NCBI RefSeq assembly: GCF_022788695.1
Contig: NZ_CP085159.1
Span: 62,001-126,000, forward strand
Length of the DNA stretch: 64,000 nt
Origin: Pseudosulfitobacter sp. DSM 107133
GTDB taxonomy: Bacteria; Pseudomonadota; Alphaproteobacteria; Rhodobacterales; Rhodobacteraceae
Direction of reading: 5' to 3'
The notes below the pieces were generated by a model. The model did not search any database. It was not told the origin of the DNA and saw only the letters and a list, made by a program, of their open reading frames with translations. The position numbers were made by a program, and so were the translations under genes. Each line of letters starts with the position of its first letter. The stretch's first letter is position 1. This document shows, one piece after another, positions 39,516 to 56,777 of the stretch.

Positions 39516-40991
39516 ATGAAGACGTTAACAGCGGTATCCGCCCTTGCCATCGCGGTATCAGGCATGGCGACAGCACAAGACCTGCCGCAGGCAGAAAATG
39601 ATTGGTTCGTATCCGGCCAAGAGCGTCTGGCCGAAGAGTTGGCAAAACTGCCCAATACCAACAGAGCCGTCAACATCATTTTGATGATCTCTGACGGCAA
39701 CGGCGTTGGTACAAACTACGCATCGCGTCTGTTTGCAGGCCAGCAAGAGGGCGGCTTTGGTGATGAGTATGTTCAACCCCAGGAGGCCTTTCCAAACCTC
39801 GCTCTGGTCAAGACCTACAACGTTAATGCCCAGACGCCGGACAGCGCTGGAACAGGCACGGCCATGATGGCCGGGATCAAGACCAAGGCTGGCATCATCG
39901 GTGTGAATGAAAACGTGAACCGCGGCGACTGTTCGACGCTGCCGGGCAATACGGTTGCCTCCATGAACGAACTTATGAGTGAGATGGGAAAAGAAACCGG
40001 CATTGTCTCCACAGCGCGCATCACACATGCAACGCCGGCCTCGGCCTATGCAAAGACAGTGGACCGCAATTTCGAGGCGTCAGTGCCTGAAGGTTGCGAC
40101 ACCCAGACTGACATTGCGACGCAGCTGATCGAGGCCATGCGTTCCGGGATGATCGACGTCGCTATGGGCGGCGGCATGCGCAACTTTCATGGTGACGAAG
40201 GCGGGCGCCGCGAAGACGGGGTCAATCTGATGGACGTAGCCCAAAGCGAACTAGGCGCTCATTTGGCGACCGATCAGGCGTCTTTCGAAAACACCCCTTT
40301 GGATGGGACCCCGATCCTCGGGCTGTTTGAAAGCAGCCACATGATGTACGAAGCTGACCGCGAAGACGAACCCAGCCTGGCCGACATGACCGGTGCGGCC
40401 ATCCAGGCGCTTCAGGCAAAATCGGGGGACAATGGCTACTTTCTTCAGGTCGAAGCGGGTCGCGTGGACCATGCCAACCACGGCGGTAACCTTGCACGCG
40501 CGGTACGTGACCAAAAGGCGTTCTCCGACGCCGTCGCGATCGCTGATGAACTGACGGACGATGCCGACACCCTGATCATCGTGACGGCTGATCATGAACA
40601 TGCGCTGGCCTTCAATGGTTATTGCGGGCGTGGGTCGGACATCCTTGGCCTGTGCATGGGCATCGACGGCGAAGGCGTGGCGCATACCGGGGAGCCCGAA
40701 TTGGGAGCCGACAATAAGCCGTTCACCGTCGCAGGCTACCTGAACGGTGCGGGATCGGTTCTGACGGAACAAGCGGATGGTTCTTTCTTTGGTACGCGAC
40801 CGGTGCTCACCGAAGAGGCCGCGACAGACCTGGACTATTTGCAGCAGGCGGTGGTTCCCAAGTCCTCCGAAACCCATTCGGGTGAGGATGTCGCCGCCTA
40901 TGCCAAAGGCCCGTGGGCACACCTTGTCGATGGCACAATTGAACAGAACATGATTTTTCACATCATGAACTATGCCGCGACGGCCGAATAA
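39516..40991 (+). CDS. phoA: Alkaline phosphatase (PhoA family)
   Basis: The 491-residue protein has a signal peptide (MKTLTAVSALAIAVSGMATA) and the catalytic block TPDSAGTGTAMMAG with the nucleophilic Ser. The metal ligands are in place: ISDGNG at the start of the fold, EAGRVDHANHGG, TADHEHAL and AHTGEP. It hydrolyses phosphomonoesters in the periplasm using two Zn and one Mg. A strong terminator follows and a Pho-like box precedes it, so it is a separate single-gene unit. CAGGAGC precedes the ATG. Confidence 0.93.
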   Translation: MKTLTAVSALAIAVSGMATAQDLPQAENDWFVSGQERLAEELAKLPNTNRAVNIILMISDGNGVGTNYASRLFAGQQEGGFGDEYVQPQEAFPNLALVKTYNVNAQTPDSAGTGTAMMAGIKTKAGIIGVNENVNRGDCSTLPGNTVASMNELMSEMGKETGIVSTARITHATPASAYAKTVDRNFEASVPEGCDTQTDIATQLIEAMRSGMIDVAMGGGMRNFHGDEGGRREDGVNLMDVAQSELGAHLATDQASFENTPLDGTPILGLFESSHMMYEADREDEPSLADMTGAAIQALQAKSGDNGYFLQVEAGRVDHANHGGNLARAVRDQKAFSDAVAIADELTDDADTLIIVTADHEHALAFNGYCGRGSDILGLCMGIDGEGVAHTGEPELGADNKPFTVAGYLNGAGSVLTEQADGSFFGTRPVLTEEAATDLDYLQQAVVPKSSETHSGEDVAAYAKGPWAHLVDGTIEQNMIFHIMNYAATAE

Positions 40992-49915: not shown

Positions 49916-50377
49916 TCAATCGGATCCCTTGATATGGTTTTCGAAAGCTATCAACGTTGCCTCGCTGACATGGTGTTCGATGCCTTCGGCATCACGCTCG
50001 GCCGTTACTTCGTCAATCCCGAGGCTTTGCAGAAATGCGACCACGATCCTGTGGCGCCTGCGGCAGGCCTCAGCGAGGGCCTGGCCTCTTTCGGTCAGGA
50101 AAATCGAGCGGTATTTTTCACGGCGCACCAGCCCTGCTTGCTTCAGGCGCGAGATGTTCTTGGTCACCGTCGGTGCTTTGACCCCCAGCCGCTCTGCGAT
50201 ATCGACCGGTCGCGCCTCCCCATGGGCTTCAATCAACTCCGCGATCAGCTCCACATAATCTTCCGCCATCTCGCTTTCATGCGCATTGCGCACGTTGGCG
50301 AATCCGTCGGCCTGGGCTTCGGGATCGCGGGAATCAGGCGTGAAATCTTCACGCGTCTGTGATGCGCCGGACGACAT
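49916..50377 (-). CDS. mntR: MntR-like DtxR-family metalloregulator
   Basis: The 153-residue protein has the winged helix (ARPVDIAERLGVKAPTVTKNISRL) and the ligand residues of MntR: EDYVELI in the first helix and the later His, Glu and EHH. There is no C-terminal SH3 domain as in DtxR/IdeR, so Mn(II) sensing is more likely than Fe(II), though not certain. The ATG at 50377 lacks a clear binding site. A GTG at 50443 inside the operator is the other option. It is divergent from the diheme operon with the dyad between. Confidence 0.85.
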   Translation of the reverse strand: MSSGASQTREDFTPDSRDPEAQADGFANVRNAHESEMAEDYVELIAELIEAHGEARPVDIAERLGVKAPTVTKNISRLKQAGLVRREKYRSIFLTERGQALAEACRRRHRIVVAFLQSLGIDEVTAERDAEGIEHHVSEATLIAFENHIKGSD

Positions 50378-50432
50378 ATGACGACTTTGCCCGATGGTTG
50401 ATGGATTGACAACAAGTTGGCTTTGGGTAGAT

Positions 50433-50452
50433 AAGTTAGACACGTCTAACTT
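50433..50452. promoter_or_regulatory. DtxR/MntR-type operator
   Basis: AAGTTAGACACGTCTAACTT is a nine-base inverted repeat around a two-base centre. Its GTTAGAC/GTCTAAC half-sites resemble DtxR-family boxes. It lies six bases before the diheme cytochrome gene, between that gene and the regulator, so binding would control the rightward operon and perhaps the regulator itself. Confidence 0.8.
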
Positions 50453-50457
50453 TTTGA

Positions 50458-52350
50458 ATGGAGCCGCCTGTGATCCATCACGTCCTGCGCGTGATCCTCT
50501 ACGCGATTGTCACCGCTTCGGTGTTGGCTGGTCCCTCTTTGGCAACACCCGCCAAGGAAGCCCCCTGGCTGCCCGAAGCGGCCGCCTATCGCCTGACGCT
50601 GTTTCTGGGCAATCTCGCGCCGGTCCCGTGGGACAAAGTGGAACAAGCCTGGACCGAGCCCTATCGCGGATCGGAGTATCGTCTCGGAGCCCTTGACTGG
50701 CTGGACCGAGAAAGCGCCATTGATGTCGGTGATCTGTCCGACGCGATTGGCAGGCAGGATCGGCATGCCGTTCATGTGGCAGCCACCCGCCTCATCGCGC
50801 TGAGAATTGAAGAAGAGCTGGATGCAGCCATTGCTGCCGATAACCCGGCGGTATCGCAACAGGCAGTGGCCACTGCCAAGGAGCTTTACCGCGCGTTTGC
50901 CGACCATATCAAAGCCGCAGACCCTGATGCGGCCCGGACACTGGGTCGGGCGTGGCTGGAACTCAACAATGCCACAGGCTCGGCCGGCGTGCTCGGCGCT
51001 GGCGCCAAGGATAGGAATGTTGAGGAAATGACTGCCGCGCGCGCGGAAATTTCAGCCTATCTGGCCGAAAATTACCTCGTCGCGGATCCTGCCCTGCGCC
51101 AGACGCTGACTGCCGTGCCCGAGGCGATTGCCCGAACCGGACAGCCGGTTGAATTGCCCGCCGCTCTGCCCCCCGGCTCAGACATCTTCGATCAGGACCC
51201 TCTACCACTTCTCGTGCTCAATTTCGAGGAGCAGGGGATCGACGAAACCGACCTGCCCCTCATCGTCTACGGTGACATGCTGTTTGACAGTGCAGAGATA
51301 TTCGGCGGACCGGCCCGCGATCTGGGCATAGCCTGTTCGACTTGTCACAATCGCTCGGACATCAATCAGCGATTTTTCATTCCCGGTGCCAGTCACCAGC
51401 CCGGAGCAGTCGACGTGGATGGCGCTTTCTTCAACCCGATGTTCAACGACCGCCGCGATGATCCGATCGATATCCCAAGCCTGCGCGGGCTGCGCTTTAC
51501 CGGACCTTACGGGCGAGACGGTCGTTTCGCGTCGCTGCGGGATTTCTCCCGCAACGTGATCGTCAATGAATTCGCTGGCGAAGAACCCACACCCTTCATG
51601 CTGGACGCACTCGTGGCCTACATGACCGAGTTCGATTTCCTGCCCAATTCCCTGGTCACCGGCGACGGCCAGTTGACGGAGGCCGCGCCGGATGCTGCGC
51701 GGCGTGGCGAAGAGGTATTCAACCGCCCCTTCGTCGGAATGGGCAACCAATCCTGTGCCAGCTGCCATACGCCATCCGGCAACTTTCTTGATCGCAAATC
51801 GCACGACATCGGATCGGTGGCTGCGGCTTACGAAGGGTCACATGCAGGTGCCCTCGACACGCCCACCTTGCTCGGTACGCTCTACACAGCGCCGTATTTC
51901 CACGACGGTCCCCTGCCGACGCTGGCAAGTGTTGTGGATTGGTTCGACGAGACAAAGAACCTTGGCCTGACCGATGCCGAGCGGTCGGACCTGACCGCCT
52001 ATCTGGAAACGGTTGGCGCAGCCGATGAGCCATACGAGGCTTTCGATACCGCGAACACGCCCTTCCGTCTGGCCTTCGCCGAACTCACGACCTTTGCCTC
52101 GACGCTCGACACGCTTCTACCGAAACGCGATGCGCAGCACATCCTGGTCCTGACCGACACGGTTGCGGCCGATCTTGCGGCCGATGCAGGCACGATGGCC
52201 AATCTTTCGTCGCGGCCCGAGGTCTACGCACTGGCCGAGCGCTTGGCAGAGGTCGGCGCAGCCGTTCGGGCAGAGAACTGGGCGGCCGCGGAAACGAGTT
52301 GGAGTCTGTTCAAGACGGATGCCGCCGCCATAGAAGAAAAGGCGTTTTGA
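50458..52350 (+). CDS. Diheme c-type cytochrome, MauG/cytochrome c peroxidase family, with N-terminal extension
   Basis: The 630-residue secreted protein has a signal peptide (VILYAIVTASVLAGPSLA), an all-helical region of roughly 200 residues with no heme site, then a diheme peroxidase-like unit with CSTCHN and CASCHT, and a helical C-terminus. Standard family members are about 350 residues, so both extensions are unusual. The family reduces peroxide or oxidises proteins and metals. An alternative GTG start at 50470 has GGAG at a good distance. It opens an operon with a PhnCDE-like ABC transporter. Confidence 0.88.
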   Translation: MEPPVIHHVLRVILYAIVTASVLAGPSLATPAKEAPWLPEAAAYRLTLFLGNLAPVPWDKVEQAWTEPYRGSEYRLGALDWLDRESAIDVGDLSDAIGRQDRHAVHVAATRLIALRIEEELDAAIAADNPAVSQQAVATAKELYRAFADHIKAADPDAARTLGRAWLELNNATGSAGVLGAGAKDRNVEEMTAARAEISAYLAENYLVADPALRQTLTAVPEAIARTGQPVELPAALPPGSDIFDQDPLPLLVLNFEEQGIDETDLPLIVYGDMLFDSAEIFGGPARDLGIACSTCHNRSDINQRFFIPGASHQPGAVDVDGAFFNPMFNDRRDDPIDIPSLRGLRFTGPYGRDGRFASLRDFSRNVIVNEFAGEEPTPFMLDALVAYMTEFDFLPNSLVTGDGQLTEAAPDAARRGEEVFNRPFVGMGNQSCASCHTPSGNFLDRKSHDIGSVAAAYEGSHAGALDTPTLLGTLYTAPYFHDGPLPTLASVVDWFDETKNLGLTDAERSDLTAYLETVGAADEPYEAFDTANTPFRLAFAELTTFASTLDTLLPKRDAQHILVLTDTVAADLAADAGTMANLSSRPEVYALAERLAEVGAAVRAENWAAAETSWSLFKTDAAAIEEKAF

Positions 52351-53222
52351 TGATGCCTCGCTTGAATCGCCGTCACCTTCTTATTCTCGCAGCGGCCGGT
52401 CTTGTCTCGCAGCCGATGCCTGCTCTGGCGCAGTCTGGCCCGTTGCGCCTGGCCTTTATACCGCAGGAGAACCCCGACAAGCTTCTGGGCGATATCAAGG
52501 CGATCACCGCCTGGCTTTCGTCTGAAATCGGTGTGCCAGTCGAAGGGTTCGTTACCATCGACCACGCGGCGGCCGTCGAAGCATTGCGCAACGGCGATGC
52601 CGATATTTCCTTTATGGGTGCCCTACCCTTCGTTCTGGCCGAAAGGGAAATCGGTGCCATCCCGCTCTTGTCAGAGGTCTACCGCGATACGCCCAGTTAT
52701 ACGGGCCGCGTCTTTGTGCGCCGTGACAGCGGCTTCAAGATGCTGGCCGATCTGGAAGGTCGCGACATCGCCTTTGCCGACCCGATTTCGGAATCGGGAT
52801 ACATGTACCCCCTGGCCGAGTTTGAGCGCGCAGGCCTGGTATCCAGCCCGGATGCGGCAGAGGACTTCTTTGGCCGCATTTTCTTTGCCGGTGGCTACCA
52901 ACAGGCAATGCAGGCGATGGCGGAGGGCCTGGTCGATGCAGCCGGGGCCAGCCAATACGCCGACCTTCTTCTCACCCCCGAGCAGCAATCTCAGGTTACT
53001 TGGATCGCGGAAAGCGATGCCATTCCAAGCCATGTCGTCATCGCACGTCCCGAACTGGACGCGGAGCTTCGCGAGAACTTCGTTGCCGCGATGATGAAGC
53101 TCAACATGCCAGAACACCGCGACAAACTCCGCTATCTCTACGGCCCGGATGGCTATGTCGAAGCCGACCCTTCGGTGTTCGACGGTGTGCGGACTATGGC
53201 GCAGCGCTTCGGATTACTATGA
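52350..53222 (+). CDS. PhnD-like periplasmic substrate-binding protein
   Basis: The 290-residue protein has a signal peptide (NRRHLLILAAAGLVSQPMPALA) and the fold of the phosphate/phosphite/phosphonate binding family: LRLAFIPQENP at the start, GDADISFMGALPFVLA, ADPISESGYMYP in the middle and DAIPSHVVIA. In PhnD-type proteins the residues after these turns bind an oxyanion. The ligand here is unknown. Control by an MntR-like protein hints at a metal or metal complex. It overlaps the diheme gene by one base (TGATG) and phnC by four. Confidence 0.88.
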   Translation: MMPRLNRRHLLILAAAGLVSQPMPALAQSGPLRLAFIPQENPDKLLGDIKAITAWLSSEIGVPVEGFVTIDHAAAVEALRNGDADISFMGALPFVLAEREIGAIPLLSEVYRDTPSYTGRVFVRRDSGFKMLADLEGRDIAFADPISESGYMYPLAEFERAGLVSSPDAAEDFFGRIFFAGGYQQAMQAMAEGLVDAAGASQYADLLLTPEQQSQVTWIAESDAIPSHVVIARPELDAELRENFVAAMMKLNMPEHRDKLRYLYGPDGYVEADPSVFDGVRTMAQRFGLL

Positions 53223-54004
53223 TGCAGAACGCCATTCACATCGACGATCTGAGCTTCGGCCATCACGGTGCTGAGCAGCGCGCCATCGATCAGGTGTCCC
53301 TGCACATAGCCGCCGGGGAGTGCGTTGCCCTTCTTGGTCCTTCCGGAGCAGGCAAGACCACGCTTTTGACGTTGCTGGATGGACGGTTGCGCGATTGGCA
53401 AGGGCGGGTCTCTGTCCTTGGTGTACCATTCGAACCCAACCGTGCGCTGCCCTTGGAAAAGCGCGCTGAAACAGGTTTCATCTTTCAGGAGTTTGCGCTT
53501 GTCGAACGATCGACAGTGATGCGCAACGTCTTGAACGGCAGGCTGGGCCGGATGCCCGGCTGGCGCGCGTTGCTTGGCAACGTGTCGAAGTCCGACATGG
53601 ACATAGCCCGATCGGCACTCTCCGACTGCGGCATCGCGGACCTCGCAGACCGGCGCGTGGACTCGCTCAGTGGCGGCCAGCGCCAGCGGGTGGCAATTGC
53701 CCGTTGTCTCGCACAAGAGCCTAAGCTGATCTTCGCGGACGAGCCGGTCAGCAACCTTGATCCGTCCAGAGCAGCGGACATCCTGACACTTCTCACCAGC
53801 GCCGCCCAGGCACGTGGGGCAACGACTGTGTTCTCGTCGCATCAACCGGAACTGGCACGGCGTTTTGCCGACCGTATCATCGGAATGCGCAACGGGCGGA
53901 TCGTCTTTGATGTCGCGACGCACGATCTGACGGATGACGCGACGGCGGCGCTCTATGACGACACCGACCCGGCATCCGGCGCACGGCTCAAGGTCGTAAG
54001 CTGA
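53219..54004 (+). CDS. PhnC-like ABC transporter ATPase
   Basis: The 261-residue protein has Walker A GPSGAGKTT, the Q-loop FQEFALVERSTVMRNVLNGR (part of the PhnC family signature), LSGGQRQRVAIARCL and Walker B LIFADEPVSNLDP. It energises the PhnE-like permease. It overlaps the binding-protein stop (ATGA) and the permease start (TGATG), so the whole operon is coupled. Confidence 0.92.
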   Translation: MMQNAIHIDDLSFGHHGAEQRAIDQVSLHIAAGECVALLGPSGAGKTTLLTLLDGRLRDWQGRVSVLGVPFEPNRALPLEKRAETGFIFQEFALVERSTVMRNVLNGRLGRMPGWRALLGNVSKSDMDIARSALSDCGIADLADRRVDSLSGGQRQRVAIARCLAQEPKLIFADEPVSNLDPSRAADILTLLTSAAQARGATTVFSSHQPELARRFADRIIGMRNGRIVFDVATHDLTDDATAALYDDTDPASGARLKVVS

Positions 54005-54762
54005 TGCGGTCGCGCAATCTGGGCGGGTTCTGGGCCGGGATGTTGGTTGCCGGTGTGGTGCTGTGGTCGCTGATCACCACCGATGTCGAACTGTCCCGAC
54101 TGCTGTCTGCAGGCCCTCGCATTGCGGATTTCCTTGGCCGCATGTTCCCGCCGGATCCGACCGTTATGGATGAGATCTGGAAGGGGAGCGCCGAGACGCT
54201 GCGGATCGCGATCCTCGGTACTGTCGGTGCGGTGATCCTTTCCGTTCCGCTTGGCATCCTCGCCTCCGAGACGATGGTGTCGGCAACGGTGCACCGGCCG
54301 ATCCGCACTGTTCTGGCATTTATTCGCGCGATCCCGCTGATCCTGGTGGCAATGCTGATGGTGGGCGCGGTTGGGCTGGGGCCATTGCCCGGCATCATCG
54401 CGGTGGCGCTCCACGCGACAGGCATGCTGGCCAAATTCTACGCCGAAGCGATCGATGGTGTGTCCCGCGCTCCGATTTCCGCTTTGGAAAGTGCCGGAGC
54501 CGGGCCGTTGCTGCGTTTACGCCATGCGATCTGGCCGCAAATGGCCCCTGTTGTAGCGCGGGACACGATCTTTCGGTTCGAGCTGAACCTGCGCGAGTCT
54601 CTGATCCTTGGCATTGTCGGGGCAGGTGGAATCGGGTTCTACATTCAGACCTATGTGCGCTCGTTCCAATACGACAAGGCCGCAAGCGTGACGATTGCAG
54701 TGGTCATCATGGTGATCGCCATTGAAGGGATCAATGTTGCGCTGCGCCGCCGGTTTGCCTGA
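54004..54762 (+). CDS. PhnE-like ABC transporter permease
   Basis: The 252-residue protein has about six membrane segments and the permease EAA-loop region (AIDGVSRAPISALESAGAG) followed by NLRESLILGIVGAGGIGFYI, typical of PhnE. It forms the membrane channel with the PhnC-like ATPase. No C-P lyase or phosphite genes are nearby. It is the last gene of the operon, convergent with an L,D-transpeptidase. Confidence 0.92.
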   Translation: MRSRNLGGFWAGMLVAGVVLWSLITTDVELSRLLSAGPRIADFLGRMFPPDPTVMDEIWKGSAETLRIAILGTVGAVILSVPLGILASETMVSATVHRPIRTVLAFIRAIPLILVAMLMVGAVGLGPLPGIIAVALHATGMLAKFYAEAIDGVSRAPISALESAGAGPLLRLRHAIWPQMAPVVARDTIFRFELNLRESLILGIVGAGGIGFYIQTYVRSFQYDKAASVTIAVVIMVIAIEGINVALRRRFA

Positions 54763-55307: not shown

Positions 55308-55425
55308 TGCTCGATGCCCCTTTTTCGGACTAATTGATTAAGGCAAGAATATTAAAAAGTTGATTTTGGATCAACCGTTGCCAGCGAGCGAAAGACTTTC
55401 CAACTGCTGCGGGCGTGCATGAAGA

Positions 55426-55450
55426 GAGTGTCCGACCTTCTGTGTATGAG
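55426..55450 (+). repeat. Left inverted repeat of the IS256-family element
   Basis: Begins GAGTGTCCGACC and ends TCTGTGTATGAG. Pairs with 56732-56756, 21 of 25 bases matching. Confidence 0.85.
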
Positions 55451-55491
55451 TAATATGGCCCATGCTTCACCAACGAAGGAGCATGACTGCA

Positions 55492-56706
55492 ATGACAATT
55501 TCCAAGGAACTACTGGACGAGCTGCTCAGCGGCGTTGAACGACCTGAGGATTTACTCGGCGACAAAGGCCTGATGAAGGAACTGAAGGTCCGGCTGATGG
55601 AACGGATGTTGGGCGCGGAACTGACCGAGCATCTGGGCTATGAGCCACATGGTGAGCCTGCCAGCCAGCAGGCCAACCGGCGTAATGGGGCGACGCGCAA
55701 AGTGCTGAAGGGCAACGACGGTGCGGTGCCGATTGACATCCCACGAGACCGGGAAGGCAGTTTCGAACCTGAGCTGATCCAGAAGGGCCAAACCCGGATC
55801 GACGGGATGGATGACAAGATCATCGGGCTTTATGCTGCAGGTTTGTCGACCCGCGATATCCGCGCCCACCTTGAAGAGGTTTATGGCCTGAAGGTTTCCG
55901 CCGACCTGGTCAGTCGCGTCACCGATGCGGTTCTGGAGGAGGTTTCAGATTGGCAAAACCGTGCCTTGGAACCAGTTTATCCTATCGTTTTTCTCGACGC
56001 TCTCAGGGTCAAAATCCGCGACGCTGAAAGTCGCCAGGTTAAAAACAAGGCCGTCTACGTGGCCTTGGGGGTCACCGCGGAGGGTGAACGCGAGGTTCTG
56101 GGCCTGTGGATCGCGGCCAACGAGGGGGCCAAATTCTGGCTGTCGATCATGAACAACCTGCGCAATCGGGGCGTCGAAGACATCCTGATCGCCGTCGTCG
56201 ATGGCCTTAAGGGCTTCCCTGACGCCATCAACGCAGCCTTCCCCGATACGACTGTGCAAACCTGCATCGTGCACCTTGTGCGCCACTCCCTGAACTTCTG
56301 CGGCTGGAAAGACCGCAAGGCCGTGGCCAAAGACCTGCGTCGGGTTTATCAGGCGGTGGACGACGAGGAAGCCGCCAAAGCCTTGGATGATTTCGAAGCT
56401 GAATGGGGTACAAAATACCCCTCAATCGCGCCAAGCTGGCGGCGCGCATGGCAGGAGGTCATCCCGTTCTTTGCCTTCCCGCCCGCGGTGCGCAAAATCA
56501 TCTACACCACCAACGCCATAGAAAGTCTGAACCGGGTGATCCGGAAAACCACGAAAACACGTGGCAGCTTTCCAACAGATGATGCCGCAACCAAGCTGAT
56601 CTATTTGGCAATCCGAAAATTCGAGAACACCGGACGGTGTGTCAGGGAATGGGTTGCTGCCCGAAACCAGTTCGCTATTCTCTACCCTGAACGGTTCAAC
56701 CGATGA
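55492..56706 (+). CDS. IS256-family (Mutator) transposase
   Basis: The 404-residue protein has the IS256 pattern: EHLGYEPHGE near the N-terminus, RNGATRKVLKG, the first acidic residue in PIVFLDALRVKIRD, the second in VVDGLKGFPDAI, and the C-terminal TTNAIESLNRVIRK with the catalytic Glu. AAGGAGC precedes ATG at 55492 by nine bases. An ATG three codons upstream is also in frame. The frame is intact to the stop near the right repeat. Confidence 0.95.
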   Translation: MTISKELLDELLSGVERPEDLLGDKGLMKELKVRLMERMLGAELTEHLGYEPHGEPASQQANRRNGATRKVLKGNDGAVPIDIPRDREGSFEPELIQKGQTRIDGMDDKIIGLYAAGLSTRDIRAHLEEVYGLKVSADLVSRVTDAVLEEVSDWQNRALEPVYPIVFLDALRVKIRDAESRQVKNKAVYVALGVTAEGEREVLGLWIAANEGAKFWLSIMNNLRNRGVEDILIAVVDGLKGFPDAINAAFPDTTVQTCIVHLVRHSLNFCGWKDRKAVAKDLRRVYQAVDDEEAAKALDDFEAEWGTKYPSIAPSWRRAWQEVIPFFAFPPAVRKIIYTTNAIESLNRVIRKTTKTRGSFPTDDAATKLIYLAIRKFENTGRCVREWVAARNQFAILYPERFNR

Positions 56707-56731
56707 CCTGTTTCAACCGCATGGGCTAAGC

Positions 56732-56756
56732 CTCATACACAGAGTTTCGGATACTC
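56732..56756 (-). repeat. Right inverted repeat of the IS256-family element
   Basis: Read inward on the minus strand it begins GAGTATCCGAAA and ends TCTGTGTATGAG. It is the partner of the left end and lies 25 bases after the transposase stop. Confidence 0.85.
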
Positions 56757-56777
56757 CCTGGATGAATGTCAACAAGC

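Follow-up and report, generated by a model that had tools for sequence, protein, structure and literature searches.

ABC importers that are controlled by a metalloregulator and work together with a periplasmic partner are already known, and several described systems resemble parts of the locus analysed here. The importers PhnCDE, PtxABC and HtxBCDE take their binding protein, ATPase and permease from the same families, but the present cassette differs in its binding pocket (H72/E148/Y183/H228), in the attached MntR and diheme protein, and in having no C-P lyase on the window, which is the whole 64,000-nucleotide stretch of DNA analysed. SitABCD and MntABC under MntR share with it ABC import under a metalloregulator, whereas the cassette's binding protein (SBP) belongs to PF12974 and has no PF01297 match. 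The likeness to EfeUOB iron uptake is one of logic only, both having a periplasmic heme protein, a periplasmic binder and an importer; the secreted diheme c-type cytochrome of the cassette (DHC) is not a DyP peroxidase, its channel is an ABC system, and FTR1-type permease and DyP peroxidase families were absent among the matches of the five cassette proteins. The Stenotrophomonas TBDR-pTFP module is likewise a previously undescribed set of envelope proteins placed under a predicted MntR site, and unlike the cassette it uses a TonB-dependent receptor and a thioredoxin-fold protein (PMC13217887). MauG, MbnH and BthA have two c-type hemes and PF03150 in common with DHC, which differs from them by a Phe at the heme 2 Tyr/Met position, two added helical regions and scores far below the cut-offs.

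In public records the genes are annotated as a transporter of the phosphonate type accompanied by a cytochrome c peroxidase. None of the literature matches listed, most subscription journals being outside their scope, described this set of genes, and MntR and PhnD were mentioned together among those matches only in a riboswitch paper. We know of no earlier example of these families in this use, of the switch in the pocket or of the diheme partner, and from the features described below the cassette probably serves to take up manganese (or iron) as a system not described before.

Organization, conservation and mobility of the locus

The genome comprises 5.2 Mb in 13 contigs, and the locus is situated on contig C6 (Table 1). 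The preliminary description had placed an MntR-like gene divergent from four tightly overlapping genes, in the order DHC, SBP, phnC and phnE, with a near-perfect dyad between mntR and DHC, and this arrangement was borne out by the coordinates and family matches. The three operon junctions are one-base TGATG overlaps, the genes at the SBP junction being a few bases apart if SBP starts at the ATG at 52353 instead of 52350. DHC is 626-630 aa long, and the GTG at 50470 is a likely alternative start, since GGAG is found 7 bases upstream and many of the listed homologs are 625-626 aa long. A transposase-like gene (ORF 55462-56706) lies within window positions 55424-56758, a segment recognized as an insertion because in each of L091 and L019 its two flanks are joined directly and have 8 bases in common, as expected of an 8-base target duplication.

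Table 1 Features of the cassette, with positions in the window and supporting matches
Feature	Position	Strand	Basis
mntR, DtxR-family manganese-sensing regulator	49916-50377	-	NCBIfam NF008273 197 bits, cut-off 153
Conserved TTGACA box, putative -35	50406-50411	+	Each letter 93-100% conserved, 81 loci
TAGATA, weak putative -10	50428-50433	+	16 bases from TTGACA, touches dyad
Operator dyad AAGTTAGACACGTCTAACTT	50433-50452	no strand	Motif scans, shuffles, conservation across loci
DHC, secreted diheme c-type cytochrome	50458-52350	+	PF03150 39.2 bits, cut-off 25.6
SBP, PhnD-like binding protein	52350-53222	+	PF12974 186 bits, cut-off 27
PhnC-like ATPase	53222-54004	+	PF00005; TIGR02315 236 bits, under cut-off 266
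PhnE-like permease	54004-54762	+	TIGR01097 245 bits, cut-off 217

Relatives of DHC were sought in one genome per species and the best 80 of 137 were kept, most of them from Rhodobacterales and others from Hoeflea, Oricola and Ahrensia, with some records labelled Porticoccus, Erythrobacter or Chromatiales. Among these best 80, MntR is encoded beside DHC in 80/80, and SBP is present in 77/80; two loci without SBP end too early (L078 and L084), and the third (L082) has lost SBP and phnC through an internal deletion that starts at the end of DHC and reaches into phnE. Under a stricter test, requiring 85% of the length and no stop, the counts are 79 for DHC, 74 for SBP, 75 for PhnC, 70 for PhnE and 76 for MntR, with many of the misses at contig ends; single loci carry one stop in SBP (L040 and L045), a broken DHC (L091) or a stop in the mntR alignment (L074). 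A genome of another alphaproteobacterial family has the four operon genes at 54-69% identity and no mntR beside DHC, on a contig that ends 1.5 kb upstream, so that MntR is not needed everywhere. SBP is present in 23 of 394 sampled genomes of the family (E <= 1e-60), and a DtxR-family gene was found in all 23 of these versus 48/371 of the others (Fisher P 2.7e-19, from a cross-tabulation made by eye); in 22/23 it is on the same contig as SBP and within about 4 kb of it. Clustering of the SBP homologs with phosphonate or phosphite systems had been named beforehand as an outcome that would speak against a metal-related role, and the homologs examined associate with MntR and DHC, not with phosphonate genes.

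The cassette is accessory, patchy and horizontally mobile, and is often plasmid-borne in marine bacteria. SBP is matched by 41 plasmid records and DHC by 53, of which 42 are matched over at least 80% of DHC and several of those 42 are typed as conjugative or mobilizable. A divergent plasmid group of 18 records at 56-58% identity comes from Labrenzia, Roseibium, Leisingera and Ruegeria, and the order mntR, "cytochrome c peroxidase", SBP, ATPase and phnE is kept in the four records of this group that were examined and on one Roseovarius plasmid. The window and Planktotalea frisia have 14.3 kb in common at 99.99%. In ten plasmids the match to DHC is confined to its first 90 residues, and on Dinoroseobacter shibae pDSHI03 (L179 5460-6291) mntR adjoins such a 90-residue stump, the rest of the operon being gone.

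Recurrent neighbours in 81 loci, with cluster names assigned by comparison with annotated plasmids, are DUF411 (57), LspA (52), a ZntA-like ATPase (52), an M23 peptidase (48), Lnt (43), a ZIP transporter (40), SCO (34) and CDF (20), and the window also encodes copper-type P-ATPases, a multicopper-oxidase-like protein, mercuric reductase and CDF transporters. These metal-resistance surroundings fit a need for manganese while other metals are in excess. A large metal-resistance island (window 6576-42700 and the flanks of related loci) carries envelope-maturation genes that recur around the cassette, including LspA, Lnt, SCO, M23, L,D-transpeptidase and CcmI-like genes, and within it an alkaline-phosphatase-like protein is encoded at 39516-40991 (PRK10518 109.6 bits, under the cut-off of 540).

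MntR and its operator

The regulator matches MntR chains of solved structure (2h09 and 1on1) and is the sole PF02742 match of the genome in a profile search. The six MntR metal ligands, which we take to be D8, E11, H77, E99, E102 and H103 in the Bacillus subtilis protein, are kept in 84/84 aligned loci. The dyad AAGTTAGACACGTCTAACTT occurs at a single place in the genome with up to 3 mismatches, both strands of the same place being matched, and in 100 shuffles of the window the average number of matches at the same tolerance was 0.00. Conservation of the dyad had also been set beforehand as a point on which metal regulation could fail. An earlier operator scan took in 68/80 loci; in the present scan 84 loci were given, 3 lacked an anchor, and the operator core TTAGNCNNGNCTAA was kept in 81/81 of the loci scanned, with no mismatch in 69 and one mismatch in 12. 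This core is found at two places in the genome, where a reversed control pattern gave 6 matches per strand, and the second place, upstream of an integrase-like gene, looks like chance. The case for the operator is one of conservation and not of rarity. A control of 1600 random windows returned 37 perfect and 6 one-mismatch cores, numbers that overstate chance because some of the drawn windows cover the operator itself.

The TTGACA box is located 22-27 bases upstream of the dyad, and a plain consensus promoter scan of the mntR-DHC stretch reported no promoter. Because the TAGATA element touches the dyad, binding of MntR should block transcription, and from this arrangement we infer that the operon is repressed by MntR. 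With ample manganese, metal-loaded MntR would occupy the dyad at the operon start and keep the operon off, and under manganese shortage it would leave the dyad and the operon would be expressed. The original proposal of a metal-regulated uptake operon gains support from the MntR-type sensor, its six kept ligands and the conserved operator just before the operon.

The binding protein pocket and its predicted cargo

SBP belongs to the PhnD/PtxB fold family (PF12974) and exceeds the threshold of the broader subfamily TIGR01098 (142 vs 112 bits), while the PhnD equivalog TIGR03431 is not reached (149.4 vs 261.1 bits). Its closest solved relatives by sequence are PtxB, ArrX, HtxB and AioX, whose ligands are phosphite, arsenate or arsenite. 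The oxygens of phosphite are contacted in Te_PtxB by Y55, Y100, S130, T131, S132 and H160, and Y208, itself held by D22, forms a cap over the pocket (PMC5700983). The six contacts align with H72, Y117, S147, E148, S149 and Y183 of SBP, and Y208 and D22 align with H228 and Q39, so that three of the six oxyanion contacts (H72, E148 and Y183) and both cap positions are replaced. The full eight-place set Q-H-Y-S-E-S-Y-H is present in 197/201 close SBP sequences, comprising that of the window, 80 loci (including L098, the window's own copy) and 120 listed of 1303 homologs, redundant sequences included; of the remaining four, two have one aligned letter missing, a third carries Lys in place of the Glu and the fourth Pro in place of a Ser. 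The outgroup consisted of 22 alphaproteobacterial SBPs drawn from 28 distant loci, L104, L106, L116, L120, L126 and L127 being left out for having no match at 1e-5, and these proteins have Tyr in 16 and His in one at position 72, Thr in 17 and Glu in 0 at position 148, and His in 20 at position 183.

With a carboxylate in the anion loop and new His and Tyr ligands, SBP is unlikely to take an oxyanion and likely to take a cation. The preliminary description had taken PhnD-type oxyanion binding as a guide to the cargo, and the pocket argues against this: it points to a protein without the oxyanion site of the phosphite binders, whose predicted cargo is a cation, with manganese or iron the likeliest, although manganese, iron, a metal complex and an organic cation are not told apart by the SBP sequence alone. 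To our knowledge, no solved PF12974 protein binds a metal. A system that imports an oxyanion or phosphonate and is under MntR by coincidence would agree with the PF12974 and PhnE family memberships and with the ligands of the nearest solved relatives, but it is quite improbable given the replaced contacts and cap positions, one of them by Glu, the missed PhnD cut-off, and the location of PhnJ and another PhnC/D/E set on a different contig. The earlier observation that C-P lyase genes are absent nearby holds for the window, whereas the genome does carry PhnJ on that other contig (C1:900196), and further PhnC/D/E-like genes are found at a distance of about 13 kb from it.

A loose twin-arginine (RR) signal pattern was found in 80/80 close versus 7/22 distant SBPs. 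Tat export lets some metal-binding proteins, such as FutA2 and MncA, fold before they meet periplasmic zinc or copper. SBP, a descendant of proteins that bind oxyanions and a probable Tat substrate, would hold a metal through His/Glu/Tyr/His and pass it to PhnE/PhnC.

The same anatomy could instead carry iron, with DHC in an EfeB-like role as in EfeUOB. His/Glu/Tyr is a ferric-type ligand set, as in FbpA, and the EfeUOB route includes a periplasmic heme peroxidase (PMC9174327). The regulator is nevertheless of the manganese type (NF008273) with the MntR ligand set kept, and iron as the cargo is considered unlikely.

The diheme cytochrome and the proposed function

DHC is assigned to the bCCP/MauG superfamily by its two CxxCH motifs, at residues 293-297 and 433-437, and its PF03150 match; no NCBIfam equivalog, MauG and MbnH included, was near its cut-off. 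Its Phe496, invariant in DHC alignments A1 and A2, aligns to a Met of the peroxidases 3o5c and 2c1u and to a Tyr of the diheme enzyme 6e1c. The aligned residue is presumably the distal sixth ligand of heme 2 in cytochrome c peroxidases (Met) and in MauG/BthA (Tyr), so heme 2 of DHC should be without the usual sixth ligand, and it is not safe to presume that DHC acts as an ordinary peroxidase. The N-terminal region is predicted to be a helical bundle (model pLDDT 84.5) for which family searches found no family, and there is also a C-terminal extension. Features of canonical bCCP or MauG proteins include a distal Gln, Pro and Glu and an inter-heme Trp (PMC6405878), and in the first heme domain of DHC, by an alignment made only by eye, the Trp, Gln and Pro seem replaced while Glu371 may take the place of the Glu. 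Other alphaproteobacterial families have shorter relatives of the diheme part (L015 8567-9931, L016 8042-9364 and L017 9393-10646), without the N-terminal region and with no transporter seen alongside.

DHC may oxidize or reduce a metal, free it from a complex, modify SBP or handle peroxide. Peroxide defence and manganese shortage are linked, and a PF03150 protein that merely removes peroxide could be co-regulated with a manganese importer and have no part in transport. This is thought quite unlikely, since the DHC-SBP pairing persists even at 58-61% DHC identity (L164 and L095) and the extra helical domains and Phe496 set DHC apart from plain peroxidases. As a MauG/MbnH-like modifier, DHC could oxidize a residue of SBP to complete its binding site, a role compatible with the importer reading. 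MbnH modifies MbnP, DHC is of the same superfamily, and W55 and W218 of SBP are near-invariant (200/201 and 201/201 close sequences, with Tyr at position 55 in 12/22 outgroups), but DHC scores are not near the MauG or MbnH cut-offs and the MauG/BthA Tyr position is Phe, and the proposal is judged improbable.

The reading that we favour, at roughly even chances, is a horizontally mobile, MntR-repressed ABC importer of a transition metal, most likely manganese, with a diheme partner acting on the same substrate. The co-expressed DHC would act in the periplasm, most plausibly by setting the redox state of the metal or freeing it from a complex; this redox step and the ligand identity of SBP are what we infer from sequence. 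Manganese-oxidizing Pseudomonas putida GB-1 contains more intracellular manganese than non-oxidizing mutants (PMC3798386), which indicates that manganese oxidation and uptake can be linked. In a narrower form of the importer, considered unlikely, DHC would oxidize periplasmic Mn(II) and the hard His/Glu/Tyr ligands of SBP would take only the oxidized ion. Zinc and cadmium are not oxidizable in this way, so such a gate would let the cell feed on manganese amid an excess of other metals and, if true, would account for the company of metal-resistance genes in which the cassette is found on plasmids. An ABC system of the phosphonate family would in that case have been converted to metal import.

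Against an importer of metal under MntR count the distant locus with no mntR beside DHC, the PhnE that still scores as PhnE, and the ZnuA/SitA-type importers already in the genome. Three PF01297-type binding proteins are encoded on other contigs, one of them with a SitABCD-like set identified by eye, and an Nramp profile search of the genome gave no match; with its own PF01297-type importers and no Nramp, the organism would use the cassette as a special-purpose system. If the cassette is a metal importer, the names in the public records mislead, and another way for marine bacteria to take up manganese can be put to the test. A few traceable substitutions would then have switched a family known for binding oxyanions to cations, and a reason would be offered for the presence of an uptake system on metal-resistance plasmids.
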